A stretch of DNA of 37,039 nucleotides, taken from an uncultured Alphaproteobacteria bacterium. Its GTDB lineage: Bacteria > Pseudomonadota > Alphaproteobacteria > Micavibrionales > Micavibrionaceae. Positions 2,809 through 8,823 of this stretch are shown here, in pieces; the first letter of the stretch is position 1, and the number at the start of each line of letters is the position of its first letter. The notes beneath the pieces were generated by a model. That model had not been told where the DNA came from, ran no database searches, and was given only the letters and a program-made list of their open reading frames with translations. The stretch is taken from assembly GCA_937934135.1 (NCBI GenBank), contig CALHAW010000028.1, positions 1-37,039 of the forward strand, given 5' to 3'. A program made the position numbers and the translations under genes.

Positions 2809-3801
2809 ATGACTGACACGATAAAAACAAAAATGCTTATTATTGGTTCTGGCCCTGCTGGCTATACTGCCGCCATCTATGCCGCGCGCGCCAATTTAGA
2901 ACCCGTTCAAGTTTTAGGGATGGAACCAGGCGGGCAGCTCACCATCACAACCGAAGTTGAAAATTACCCCGGCTTTGCCGACTCAATCCAAGGACCATGG
3001 TTGATGGAACAAATGAAGGCACAGGCCGAAAATGTTGGCACAAAAACCATATATGACATGATCACGGAAATTGATTTTTCTTCCCAGCCCTATAAAGCCA
3101 AATCTGACGGTGGTGCAGAATTTATCGCTGACACAGTTGTAATCTGTACGGGCGCCAAAGCCAGATGGCTCGGCCTCGACAGTGAACAAACATTCCGCAA
3201 TATGGGCGTAAGCGCCTGCGCAACATGTGACGGGTTTTTCTTCCGAAACAAACGCGTTGCCGTTGTTGGTGGTGGAAACAGCGCCGTAGAAGAAGCGCTC
3301 TTCCTTTCACAGCTTTGTGAAAAGGTAACACTTATTCATCGCCGTGATGAACTGCGCGCTGAAAAAATTATGCAACAACGCCTGTTTGACAATCCAAAAA
3401 TTGATGTCTTATGGGATAGTGTCGTTGAAGAAATTGAAGGCATCGAAGTGGGCCAAGAAAAAAATGAAGGCGACACACCCGGCGTCACAGGTATCCGTAC
3501 AAAAAACACGAAAACAGGCGAAGAAACGTTAACGGCGCTTGAAGGCGTCTTTATCGCTATCGGTCACGATCCCGCGACAGAACTTTTTAAAGGAAAGCTC
3601 GAAATGGATGATGAAGGATATTTAATCACTGCCCCTGATTCAACCGCAACCTCAATTCCTGGTATTTATGCAGCAGGGGACGTGAAAGACAAAACATATC
3701 GTCAGGCCGTTACTGCCGCAGGTATGGGCTGTATGGCCGCACTTGAGGCCGATAAATACCTCGCCGATCTAGAAGTCAATAATGAGAAAGAAGCCGCATA
3801 A
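2809..3801 (+). CDS. trxB: Thioredoxin-disulfide reductase TrxB
   Basis: TrxB is an FAD flavoenzyme that passes electrons from NADPH to thioredoxin in the cytoplasm. The 330-aa length is normal. The FAD-binding GSGPAG is at 13-18. The redox-active CATC is at 137-140, the standard CxxC of low-molecular-weight reductases. The NADPH-binding GGGNSA is at 154-159 and the second FAD contact, AAGD, is near 288-291. A short acidic insert at about 215-225 does not disturb a motif. The lysR-type gene follows 100 bp downstream in the same orientation. A trxB-lysR order is common in alphaproteobacteria. Confidence 0.97.
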   Translation: MTDTIKTKMLIIGSGPAGYTAAIYAARANLEPVQVLGMEPGGQLTITTEVENYPGFADSIQGPWLMEQMKAQAENVGTKTIYDMITEIDFSSQPYKAKSDGGAEFIADTVVICTGAKARWLGLDSEQTFRNMGVSACATCDGFFFRNKRVAVVGGGNSAVEEALFLSQLCEKVTLIHRRDELRAEKIMQQRLFDNPKIDVLWDSVVEEIEGIEVGQEKNEGDTPGVTGIRTKNTKTGEETLTALEGVFIAIGHDPATELFKGKLEMDDEGYLITAPDSTATSIPGIYAAGDVKDKTYRQAVTAAGMGCMAALEADKYLADLEVNNEKEAA

Positions 3802-3901
3802 CCCCACGCTCCGTTACTTTGTGTGTAACAAATCATAAAAAATAACGAATATTTTGGGAGCGCAACAACGCTATCAAAAAGAAAATAAAAAGGATTTAAA
3901 A

Positions 3902-4795
3902 ATGGATTGGGATAAACTCAGAACTTTCCACATTGTTGCCGAGGCGGGTAGCTTTACCCATGCAGGAGCAGCCCTTGACCTCAGTCAATCTGCGATCAGT
4001 CGCCAAATAAGCGGCCTTGAAGAAAGCCTTGGCGGTGTTAAGCTTTTTCATCGTCACGCACGCGGCCTTGTCCTAACCGAAGCGGGAGAACTGCTTGAAA
4101 AAACCGCCGCTGATATCTTCGGTAAACTTTCTATGGTTGAAGCCCGTCTATCAGATTCCATTTCACAACCCACAGGAACGCTGCGCATTACCGCGCCGGG
4201 GTTCTTAGGGTCAACATGGCTTGTACCTAAATTATCAGACTTGCATGAAAAATATCCTGAGCTGGAAATTCAACTCCTCCTCGATAATCGTATTTTTAAT
4301 CTTGGTATGCGCGAAGCCGATGCCGCCATCCGTCTCTATAAACCAGATCAGAATGACTTACTGCATATTAAGCTTGGTGCTATTAAATTTAAAATTTGCG
4401 GCTCAAAAGATTATTTTAAAAAACATGGTATGCCTAAAAAAGTCACAGATCTTAAAAATCATCTGCTGTTAGGATATCCACCGCATGTACCCGTCCCCTT
4501 TGAAGACCAAAACTGGTTGTTTCGCACCGCAGGCGTTGATGAAGAAAGCAACACCAAGCTTATCCGTATGAACTCCCTACATGCAATATCTCAAGGGACA
4601 CAGCACGGATTGGGTCTTTCTGTCCTACCAGAGTATATTATTAACAATAATGATAGTCTTGAGGGCTGCCTAAATGATGTCGTGCGCCCTCCCGTTGATG
4701 TGTATTTTGTCTATGCCGCAGAACGCAAAGACTCGAACCGTATTAAACTTTTACAAGAATTTCTCACAGATACCGCCCAAAACAGTGATTTTTAA
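3902..4795 (+). CDS. LysR-family transcriptional regulator
   Basis: The start chosen is the ATG at 3902, which follows AAAAAGGA by 7 bases and gives MDWDKLRTFHIVAEAGSF, the standard LysR opening (297 aa). An in-frame TTG at 3854 would add 16 lysine-rich residues that the family lacks. Residues 1-60 are the winged helix-turn-helix (AGAALDLSQSAISRQISGLE), followed by a linker helix. From about 90 onward comes the periplasmic-binding-protein-like effector domain (TGTLRITAPGFLGSTWLVP). The target is unknown. Tandem placement behind trxB hints at redox or housekeeping control but proves nothing. A terminator lies 8 bases after the stop. Confidence 0.95.
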   Translation: MDWDKLRTFHIVAEAGSFTHAGAALDLSQSAISRQISGLEESLGGVKLFHRHARGLVLTEAGELLEKTAADIFGKLSMVEARLSDSISQPTGTLRITAPGFLGSTWLVPKLSDLHEKYPELEIQLLLDNRIFNLGMREADAAIRLYKPDQNDLLHIKLGAIKFKICGSKDYFKKHGMPKKVTDLKNHLLLGYPPHVPVPFEDQNWLFRTAGVDEESNTKLIRMNSLHAISQGTQHGLGLSVLPEYIINNNDSLEGCLNDVVRPPVDVYFVYAAERKDSNRIKLLQEFLTDTAQNSDF

Positions 4796-4803
4796 GAAAA
4801 TCG

Positions 4804-4830
4804 GGGATAAATAGTAAAAATATCCCTTTT
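4804..4830 (+). terminator. Intrinsic terminator of the LysR-type gene
   Basis: GGGATA (4804-4809) pairs with TATCCC (4821-4826) across an A-rich loop, and TTTT follows directly. It isolates the upstream unit from the RNA gene promoter just downstream. Confidence 0.65.
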
Positions 4831-4845
4831 AGTGCCATTTTCCAC

Positions 4846-4874
4846 TTTACAGCATAGATTCACAACGCTATAAC
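4846..4874 (+). promoter_or_regulatory. Promoter of the candidate RNA gene
   Basis: TTTACA (4846-4851) and TATAAC (4869-4874) match 5/6 positions each of the sigma-70 consensus and are exactly 17 bp apart. Predicted transcription start is about 4881. Confidence 0.6.
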
Positions 4875-4880
4875 GCCCCC

Positions 4881-5050
4881 AACCTTACGTGAGTAAGGCG
4901 CGGGTTTTGCGGTCTTGTCCTGAAATCCGATGTTTTTTTCTTTACCCCGCCCCCCTGTTTACAGGCACGGCGATTTAGGAAAAAACGTGAAACCTCCCTG
5001 TTCAACTAAGCACCGGGTTCATCTTGCAAAAGGTGACCCGGTCTTTTTTT
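4881..5050 (+). ncRNA. Candidate structured small RNA of about 170 nt (possibly 6S-like)
   Basis: The stretch has its own promoter, three consecutive stem-loops and a terminator, and no convincing reading frame. Stem 1 is CCTTAC-GTGA-GTAAGG (4883-4898), perfect and capped by a GNRA tetraloop. The central arm pairs TCCTGAAATCCG (4918-4929) with CGATTTAGGA (4971-4980), giving 10 bp with two bulges and enclosing an inner CCTG-TTTA-CAGG hairpin (4954-4965). The last stem is the terminator. The single-stranded part between includes ACCTCCC (4992-4998), complementary to Shine-Dalgarno sequences. The length, and the local order GTCC..TGA..CCGAT..TTT, recall 6S RNA. However, the ends do not pair within the terminated transcript as 6S ends should, and ssrS normally sits by zapA. 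Alternatives are a trans-acting sRNA with an anti-SD loop, or an attenuated leader of the patatin gene: TTTTGC 4905-4910 and CGGG 4901-4904 could pair with 5026-5040 and break the terminator. Confidence 0.5.
5012..5050 (+). terminator. Intrinsic terminator of the candidate RNA gene
   Basis: ACCGGGT (5012-5018) pairs with ACCCGGT (5036-5042), and CA/TG extends the stem past one bulged T. CTTTTTTT follows. It is the strongest terminator-like hairpin in this stretch and lies 80 bases before the start of the patatin gene. Confidence 0.75.
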
Positions 5051-5130
5051 GTCTTTTACAATATGGGCTTTGGGGCGCTTCATGGTACAATATATTTCAA
5101 ACTTATTTTTCCATTCTTTCAATCATCATT

Positions 5131-6357
5131 ATGCAAGATAAATCAGATACAAGAGAACCCGTTATCGCCCTGTTTAATTGTGGCGGTGGTTTACGTGGCT
5201 TAATCCCTGCCCACATCATGACTCGCATCGAAAAGAAAACGGGTTTACGAATGAGCGAGATGGTCGATATTTTTTGCGGCCCATCAACAGGCGCAATTTT
5301 AAATGCTGCCCTCACCCTTCCCCACCCTGATCACCCGCACCGTGCAAAATATTACGCCCGTCATTTGGTACGCTTTTATGAACGTGAAGGCGCAAAAATA
5401 TTCCCCCAAGATCGCTTTCGGGAACTGCGTGGCCTTCTTCATGATTTTAACAATAGATTGACTAAAATCAGTCAATTAGAGAGCGTTTTTAAACATGGAA
5501 ATTATGACCCATCTTATCTCTCAAAGGCCCTACGTGCGCTTTATGGATCAGCCAAATTAACAGACAGCCTCAAAAGTCTTGTTATCCCCTTTTACAGTAT
5601 CGATGGGAATAACATACCTGACGGATATTCTAATGAAACAAACTCTACCGCCGCGCGCCATTATGCGCGCTCTGGCGGTCATGCCGTCTGGCTCAGACAT
5701 ATGAAGCTTCATAATGAAAAGCACCAAAATGGTATAACACCTGACGTGCTTCTTCATGATGCCGTTATGGCCAGTTGCGCCGCACCCACTTATTTTCCCT
5801 GTCATAATTTAGACATTGGCTGGCCTGATCAACGCGGCATCAAAAGCTATTCTGCTATTGATGGTAATATCTTTGATAATCCAGCCGTGTCTTATTACGG
5901 CGCTATTCAAAAGCATTTAGACCCCCATCAAAAGCTCGTTATGATTGGCCTGGGGACGGGATATACAAACCGTACTTTCAAAAAAGAAAAATGGAACAAA
6001 TACGGATCGCTTGGCGTGGTCGATCCTGTGAATGACCTCCCCCTCATTAATATCTTCTTCCACGCATCCGAATCCGCCTTATCCCATAGCCTCCTGCATG
6101 AGCTAGGGGGTGATTTTCACATGTTTAATAAGACATTATTGGATGATGATCCAGATAACCCCAATATCAGTATTGATGATGGATCACCTGAAAATCTCAA
6201 AAAAATGCGTCAATTCGCCGAAGCTTTAATGGAGGAATACGCAGATCAACTGGATGATGTCTGCCATATGCTGGTCAATAACCGTGACCGCAAATTCCAA
6301 AGTGAGAAATCAACAAGCTTCAAAGACAAGCTGTTTTCCTTTATTGGAAAGAAATAA
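5131..6357 (+). CDS. Patatin-like phospholipase / acyl hydrolase
   Basis: Patatins are Ser-Asp dyad lipid acyl hydrolases. The 408-aa product from the ATG at 5131 has the oxyanion-hole loop GGGLRG (18-23), the nucleophile elbow GPSTG with Ser52, and the Asp motif IDGNIFDNP with Asp244 in place of the more usual DGG. No signal peptide is visible from this start. The frame is open back to about 4930, but that part overlaps the terminator hairpin and RNA candidate and has no homology-like features, so I reject the longer start. The ATG has no Shine-Dalgarno, so the start is less certain than the gene. A second predicted hydrolase follows 150 bp downstream. The substrate is unknown. It could act in the cytosol or be exported as an effector. 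Confidence 0.88.
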   Translation: MQDKSDTREPVIALFNCGGGLRGLIPAHIMTRIEKKTGLRMSEMVDIFCGPSTGAILNAALTLPHPDHPHRAKYYARHLVRFYEREGAKIFPQDRFRELRGLLHDFNNRLTKISQLESVFKHGNYDPSYLSKALRALYGSAKLTDSLKSLVIPFYSIDGNNIPDGYSNETNSTAARHYARSGGHAVWLRHMKLHNEKHQNGITPDVLLHDAVMASCAAPTYFPCHNLDIGWPDQRGIKSYSAIDGNIFDNPAVSYYGAIQKHLDPHQKLVMIGLGTGYTNRTFKKEKWNKYGSLGVVDPVNDLPLINIFFHASESALSHSLLHELGGDFHMFNKTLLDDDPDNPNISIDDGSPENLKKMRQFAEALMEEYADQLDDVCHMLVNNRDRKFQSEKSTSFKDKLFSFIGKK

Positions 6358-6423
6358 ACCTCCCACTTATCCACAATATGCATTTTTTGCACTTCTAATA
6401 TGCTGATTCAATTCAAAGAATCT

Positions 6424-6458
6424 GGAACACTTATAAAAAGTAATAATAAGTGCGTTCC
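6424..6458. promoter_or_regulatory. Long imperfect hairpin between two hydrolase genes
   Basis: GGAACACTTAT (6424-6434) pairs with ATAAGTGCGTTCC (6446-6458), giving 11 bp with a 2-base bulge. No long T-tract follows on the right, so a terminator role is weak. It may be an operator or an mRNA structure ahead of the gene at 6508. Confidence 0.4.
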
Positions 6459-6507
6459 TTTCTATGACCTTATCCAGATTTTCTACATTTATACGTAAAG
6501 GTTTTTT

Positions 6508-8823
<2,316 letters not shown>

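Follow-up and report, generated by a model that had tools for sequence, protein, structure and literature searches.

A likely anti-Shine-Dalgarno small RNA gene behind a trxB-linked LysR gene in Micavibrionaceae, with relatives over much of the Alphaproteobacteria

The described systems closest to the locus reported here are SorX/SorY, AbcR1/AbcR2 and MmgR/SisA. SorX of Rhodobacter sphaeroides is cut from the 3' UTR of the mRNA of an OmpR gene, RSP_0847; another enzyme makes the first cut, and RNase E then frees the mature RNA (PMC6238624). The gene order in Agrobacterium is trxB-vtlR-abcR1-abcR2 and VtlR activates abcR1, according to the accessible text of PMC7486931, and in Sinorhizobium LsrB activates AbcR1, whose anti-Shine-Dalgarno motifs repress transport mRNAs (accessible portion of PMC8844928). 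MmgR/SisA-D (alpha-r8) is wide in Alphaproteobacteria; SisA/alphaR8 acts through UUUCCUCCCU, and its published neighbour, in the part of the paper that is accessible, is an FGase gene (PMC12559287). Among titles and abstracts under open licence we found no description of an sRNA with the present sequence behind trxB-lysR outside the AbcR literature, and the accessible portions of an Azospirillum sRNA paper (PMC7685610) and of PMC3927594 name no sRNA at this place.

The window is the whole stretch of DNA that was analyzed, 37,039 nucleotides from an uncultured member of the Micavibrionaceae (GCA_937934135.1, contig CALHAW010000028.1; order Micavibrionales, class Alphaproteobacteria). Between a LysR-type regulator gene and a patatin-like phospholipase gene it carries what we consider likely to be a free-standing gene whose product, some 168 nt long, is a small regulatory RNA acting in trans (Table 1). 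This RNA is best read as probably an Hfq-dependent anti-Shine-Dalgarno sRNA that is related to SorX/SorY and lies in the AbcR1 position. The thioredoxin-reductase-like gene farther upstream is one that we take to be trxB, from the layout and from general background. Upstream of it, 1746-2696 encodes a Mito_fiss_Elm1 family protein, relatives of which are likewise placed at three other loci (L017, L018 and L032), and behind the patatin gene lies a 413-aa ORF (6508-7749) that matched no Pfam family at E <= 0.001.

Table 1. Features of the sRNA locus and its flanking genes (positions in the window)
Feature	Positions	Strand	Basis
Thioredoxin-reductase-like gene (trxB)	2809-3801	+	Pfam Pyr_redox_2
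LysR-type regulator gene, upstream (LsrB/VtlR position)	3902-4795	+	Pfam HTH_1, LysR_substrate
-35-like hexamer TTTACA	4846-4851	+	direct reading; 17 bp to -10
-10-like hexamer TATAAC	4869-4874	+	direct reading; RNA would start near 4881
SL1, perfect 6-bp stem CCTTAC/GTAAGG, GUGA loop	4883-4898	+	fold
Bulged hairpin between SL1 and SL2	4901-4929	+	fold; short hairpin here in several relatives
SL2, 12-bp stem (4930-4941 with 4977-4988), directly 5' of seed	4930-4988	+	folds, covariation
Exposed seed GAAACCUCCCUGUUCAACU, anti-Shine-Dalgarno core CCUCCC	4989-5007	+	BLAST block 4985-5007; unpaired in best fold
Intrinsic terminator, stem 5008-5045, T-run 5044-5050 (seven T)	5008-5050	+	fold, covariation
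Patatin-like phospholipase gene, downstream	5131-6357	+	Pfam PF01734

A first-pass annotation of this DNA had described a promoter with exact 17-bp spacing, a GNRA-capped perfect stem, a bulged arm, an exposed ACCTCCC and a terminator, and its observation as a whole is confirmed: both hexamers were read directly, the stem with its GUGA loop, the bulged arm and the terminator with its T-run all appear in the fold, and ACCTCCC (4992-4998) lies within the stretch 4989-5007, which is unpaired in the best fold, one pairing proposed at the same time being the exception that is taken up below. The two hexamers agree with the consensus at 10 of 12 positions, and TATA-like hexamers occur at a similar place in many relatives, in some of which the pattern used misses them. 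A consensus promoter scan did not list TTTACA-17-TATAAC (4846-4874), because it demands a T at the last position of the -10 hexamer, and its terminator rule likewise missed the terminator; within 3500-7000 that scan found promoter-like or terminator-like sites no commoner than in shuffles. The predicted transcript would run from about 4881 to 5048-5050 and measure about 168-170 nt. Compared with 200 dinucleotide shuffles, the segment 4880-5050 had a better fold than 199 of them (z -4.28), and the reverse strand of 4860-5055 was unremarkable against shuffles (z -1.36). Mean unpaired probability was 0.79 for 4990-5006. Directly 3' of lysR, at 4804-4826, an inverted repeat GGGATA...TATCCC is followed by a T-rich tail and is possibly a weak lysR terminator. 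The flank 4807-4864 has 78% identity to one place in a genome of the same genus (G004).

BLAST with 4796-5135 gave matches in 31 of 58 genomes, one of them that of the window, and the block 4985-5007 was covered in 29 of the 30 other matching genomes; the match in G004 was to the upstream flank only. A covariance model, R1, was built from 28 aligned relatives that excluded the window and had been picked by an exact 16-mer of the seed, so that the invariance of the seed among these 28 is partly a product of selection. Up to an E value of 10, the sole R1 match in the 37-kb window was this RNA (43.4 bits, E = 5.5e-9), one of the most diverged copies, with the fifth lowest score of 83. At E <= 0.01 the model matched 76 of 114 order genomes, counting the window and most of the model sources, and 124 of 289 class genomes, counting the window and two of the sources; chance alone would give about 3 in the 289. 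In a sample of 299 genomes from the phylum, class members included, 11 genomes matched and all of them fell within the class. Some of the weak R1 matches may be other families; one of them (G154) coincides with an MmgR match. A search with the seed pattern returned at least 119 stretches, and the 80 listed include Azospirillum, Magnetospirillum, Kiloniella, Reyranella, Inquilinus, Roseomonas and Micavibrio, along with many records labelled Rhodospirillales or Alphaproteobacteria. By the seed pattern used for the stem, box and neighbourhood counts, three order loci (L215, L228 and L230) have no seed, and the plasmid records searched gave no match.

The hairpin directly 5' of the seed, SL2, was absent from the first-pass annotation and proved by covariation to be a conserved helix. 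In most aligned relatives it reads ACGUCU-CCC-AGACGU, and in the window its loop is long and encloses a nested hairpin, the arms there being AUGUUUUUUUCU and AGGAAAAAACGU. G004 and G005, both of the same genus as the window, have the long loop too, which suggests that the odd middle part of the window copy is an enlarged SL2 loop. Single sequences show compensated versions of the helix, in which ACGUCU/AGACGU becomes GCGUCU/AGACGC or UUGUACC/GGUACAA, and in further relatives the arms are replaced by UUUCAUGCCC/GGGUAUGAAA or UACGUUUUAA/UUAAAAUGUA. The best fold of one relative (L013) lacks the consensus SL2, and in L010, L031 and L224 the automated choice of stem took another one. At the place of SL1 the sequence varies widely among relatives and a hairpin is mostly kept.

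Covariation was measured on 81 distinct sequences for the two modelled helices, SL2 and the terminator, with an alignment that was fitted to the structure, which favours the covariation measures. Paired cells made up 96.6% of these helices as against 23-44% when the helices were slid as controls, double-sided changes occurred in 12 of the 13 pairs, 94 cells with double changes were observed against 16.5 in shuffles, and none of 500 shuffles scored as high on any of the five measures. RNAalifold on a MAFFT alignment of the 28 model sequences gave only two short helices with almost no covariation, because SL1 is too divergent to be aligned and SL2 is nearly invariant in those 28; the evidence of covariation comes from the larger set of 81. 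The first-pass annotation had proposed covariation analysis as a check and had held that an RNA gene would be refuted by a lack of conservation or of compensatory changes in related genomes together with the absence of a transcript; the RNA is conserved, both modelled helices covary, and the pattern suggests an RNA structure under selection.

Searched at gathering scores, Rfam gave no family in the window, and no family reached its cut-off in the window RNA or in the 38 related loci scanned (18 from the order and 20 from the class). This search too had been recommended at the outset, and it gave no 6S match and left the alphaproteobacterial sRNA families below cut-off. The best own-strand Rfam match in the window by E value was SorX (RF02784), at 15.1 bits and E 0.48. 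The same model matched 17 of the 18 order loci (20.1-38.9 bits) and 19 of the 20 class loci (up to 42 bits), and its cut-off of 46.6 was reached neither in the window nor in any of the 38 loci. What the window RNA has in common with SorX and SorY (RF02784, RF02651) is a hairpin, a single-stranded ACCUCCCUGUU, a short linker and a terminator of the GCCGGGC type; its seed continues as UGUUCAACU, whereas that of SorX continues as UGUUGGAC. From these comparisons the RNA appears to belong to a family that has no Rfam entry of its own, extends over much of the class, and has SorX and SorY as its nearest named relatives.

With AbcR1/AbcR2 (alpha-r15, RF02345), as far as the accessible descriptions go, the RNA shares its position downstream of trxB-vtlR and the possession of anti-Shine-Dalgarno motifs. 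The order trxB-lysR-RNA is present in the window and in many relatives, and the likeness is one of layout; the AbcR motifs in the accessible published text, CUCCUCCC and UUCCCCUC, differ from the AAACCUCCCUGUU of the window RNA. The RF02345 model found nothing in the window up to an E value of 10, nothing over its cut-off in 38 genomes (best 26 bits of 40, with no listed place coinciding with that of R1), and nothing in the 289 class genomes, in a search run without a working positive control. The resemblance to MmgR/SisA-D (alpha-r8, RF00519), again from the accessible descriptions, consists of a weak hairpin, a CCUCCCU core and a terminator, the core being UUUCCUCCCU there and AAACCUCCCU here. 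RF00519 matched in 158 of 289 class genomes; in the window it found nothing at E <= 10, and it gave at most 21.6 bits in the order loci and stayed below its 41-bit cut-off at all 20 of the R1 class loci scanned, 14 of whose genomes had a match over the cut-off at another place. In design alpha-r8 (MmgR, SisA) is a sibling of the present RNA, located elsewhere.

Directly upstream of the RNA, a LysR relative on the same strand is present at 41 of the 50 order loci that could be evaluated, and the corresponding counts are 19 of 27 for the class and 53 of 64 for the named loci. Relatives of trxB farther upstream were seen in 38/51, 11/28 and 41/78 of the order, class and named loci, counts in which many loci may end before trxB, while a patatin relative follows downstream in 34 of 51 order loci, in none of the 28 class loci outside the order and in 6 of 78 named loci. 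The named set includes members of the order, so that these two sets overlap in part, and loci whose flank was too short are left out of all flank-based counts. The RNA therefore goes with LysR rather than with patatin. Two whole-genome searches, with R1 and for LysR, were compared as well. Among the 150 R1 class matches listed, 85 have a same-strand LysR gene no more than 1 kb upstream of them, 37 do not adjoin a listed LysR gene and 28 are in genomes for which no LysR match was listed; the LysR search had matched 168 genomes, and the 150 LysR matches listed were used for this comparison. The distance from LysR to the RNA had a median of 222 nt (first 83 adjoining matches).

The VtlR box is given as GCAT-N3-TG-N3-T in the accessible text of PMC7486931, and it was sought 45-190 nt upstream of the seed, with 200 shuffles that took no account of kinship among loci. 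Among the 51 order loci 13 have the box, each at -98 to -123 (shuffle mean 0.7 and maximum 4), and among the 75 named loci 12 have it (shuffle mean 1.3 and maximum 7); in the class it was present in 4 of 28 loci against a shuffle mean of 0.8 and a maximum of 5, where the enrichment is not clear. The exact box is absent from 38 of the 51 order loci, the window copy among them, so that expression of the RNA in that species could be constitutive or under some other control. Elsewhere in the window, at 6377-6404, the sequence ATATGCATTTTTTGCAC... is the sole match to ATGCRT-N4-TGCA. It resembles the LysR-type box that lies upstream of the sRNA in relatives and is missing at the window's own sRNA, and it is followed, after some 43-56 nt, by a TATAAA (6432-6437) that in turn precedes the ORF 6508-7749; no box of this kind was seen behind patatin in G003 or G004.

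The first-pass annotation had offered a diverged 6S RNA, an anti-Shine-Dalgarno trans-acting sRNA and a terminator-controlled leader as readings of the locus, and among these the trans-acting sRNA proved right in kind, as judged by seed conservation, helix covariation and conserved position. In the leader reading the RNA would act as an attenuator or riboswitch-like element of the patatin gene, pairing of 4901-4910 with 5026-5040 breaking the terminator and allowing read-through. The two segments are indeed complementary, with a bulge, and a same-strand patatin gene follows at 34 of the 51 order loci, but no fold with the pairing is better than -43.9 kcal/mol, against -59.7 for the best fold overall, a loss of 15.8 kcal/mol. 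Moreover, all 28 class loci that lie outside the order have the RNA and no patatin relative. Of the longest ORFs downstream, 17 of 26 at class loci and 37 of 69 at named loci run on the opposite strand, as raw stop-to-stop frames of which some may be spurious. We regard a patatin leader as very unlikely. A related idea is that the stretch simply encodes protein, since the frame 4930-6357 is open and translation from 4930 would add 67 residues to patatin; a protein expressed from that frame had been named beforehand as a possible refutation of the RNA. In L029, as in the window, the patatin frame stays open across the RNA, but in most of the relatives listed it opens only behind the terminator, patatin similarity begins there as well, and conservation of the stretch takes the form of RNA helices, with indels, which together make a coding extension scarcely credible. 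For 6S RNA only the size and the free-standing place speak. The shape of 6S RNA is one long bulged rod, whereas here a chain of hairpins is joined to a conserved single-stranded seed, and no 6S model matched at the gathering score or at E values up to 10; its probability is likewise close to nil. All three of these explanations were rejected.

More weight attaches to the thought that the RNA has no promoter of its own and is cut, as SorX is, from the 3' end of a trxB-lysR mRNA. The position close behind a same-strand lysR in most loci with an evaluable flank would fit, and SorX, released by RNase E after the cut of another enzyme, provides a precedent in the accessible part of PMC6238624. The promoter-like TTTACA-17-TATAAC stands at the right distance, however, TATA-like hexamers recur in many relatives, a VtlR-type box lies upstream in part of the order, and the weak inverted repeat at 4804-4826 could end the lysR mRNA ahead of the sRNA. 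An origin in the 3' UTR is thus rather improbable, yet it is the least improbable of the alternatives to a free-standing sRNA gene.

As a free-standing trans-acting sRNA, the locus can be put into a working model. Comparison of the relatives shows that the conserved SL2 presents the strongly conserved single-stranded AAACCUCCCUGUUCAACU, that a strong terminator closes the RNA, and that the gene lies most often directly downstream of a trxB-linked LysR gene. Transcription would start from its own promoter and, in part of the order, would be controlled by the neighbouring LysR of the LsrB/VtlR type. Together with Hfq, the CCUCCC core and its flanks would pair with the Shine-Dalgarno regions of target mRNAs, and this pairing would block their translation. 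A conserved single-stranded seed followed by a Rho-independent terminator, the design of Hfq-dependent sRNAs, is found here, and an hfq gene is present in the window genome. Since UGUUCAACU is conserved beyond the anti-Shine-Dalgarno core, pairing may be more specific than a plain covering of Shine-Dalgarno sequences, and since the mRNAs repressed by similarly built sRNAs in the literature are those of transporters, transporters would be the likeliest targets. The target pattern AACAGGGAGGV-N1-10-ATG matched 17 times in 58 genomes as against 5 times for the reversed control, and a shorter pattern matched twice in the window genome against once for its control. No clear recurring gene emerged from the pattern search; the only two matches that were alike came from one genus, in which no R1 match is among those listed. 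The model is testable, and it concerns an sRNA with matches in 124 of the 289 class genomes and in 76 of the 114 from the order.

The region downstream of this LysR gene was also looked at in class genomes without an adjacent R1 match, 20 being taken from the 69 listed. With the filters off, R1 matched in 6 of the 20 regions at E <= 0.01, and at least one of several C-rich motifs sought, with a downstream T-run, was present in 11 of the 20, by a loose criterion that had no control. One region (L250) gave SorX at 51.6 bits, above the cut-off of 46.6, and another (L249) gave SorY at 62.1 bits and E 1.9e-10 (cut-off 111) along with SorX at 41.5; we infer from these SorX/SorY matches that both genomes are from Rhodobacterales. 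These findings suggest that the place behind this LysR often holds an sRNA of the anti-Shine-Dalgarno type, its occupants being the present family, RNAs resembling SorX/SorY and, from the literature, AbcR1. It is conceivable, though we lean slightly against it, that the trxB-LysR locus is an ancient redox-linked slot for anti-Shine-Dalgarno sRNAs, in which the present family would be the widespread form and SorX/SorY (Rhodobacterales) and AbcR1 (Rhizobiales) diverged forms, the LysR-sRNA unit being older than the main orders of the class. The shared gene place would join two systems that have been studied apart, the oxidative-stress sRNAs SorX/SorY and the LsrB/VtlR-AbcR circuit. If LysR controls the sRNA, a redox-linked regulator and an sRNA would have travelled together over much of the class, Micavibrionaceae included.

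Some genomes have more than one match or copy. Second, weaker R1 matches of 38-41 bits, which are possible paralogues, occur in three genomes of the order (G022:C8:628243, G023:C113:6845 and G100:C106:2492). Tandem copies in some class genomes resemble the tandem abcR1-abcR2 arrangement: three copies lie within G285:C1:3175647-3176244, two at L061 (1133-1204 and 1501-1571) and two within G381:C3:270671-270935.
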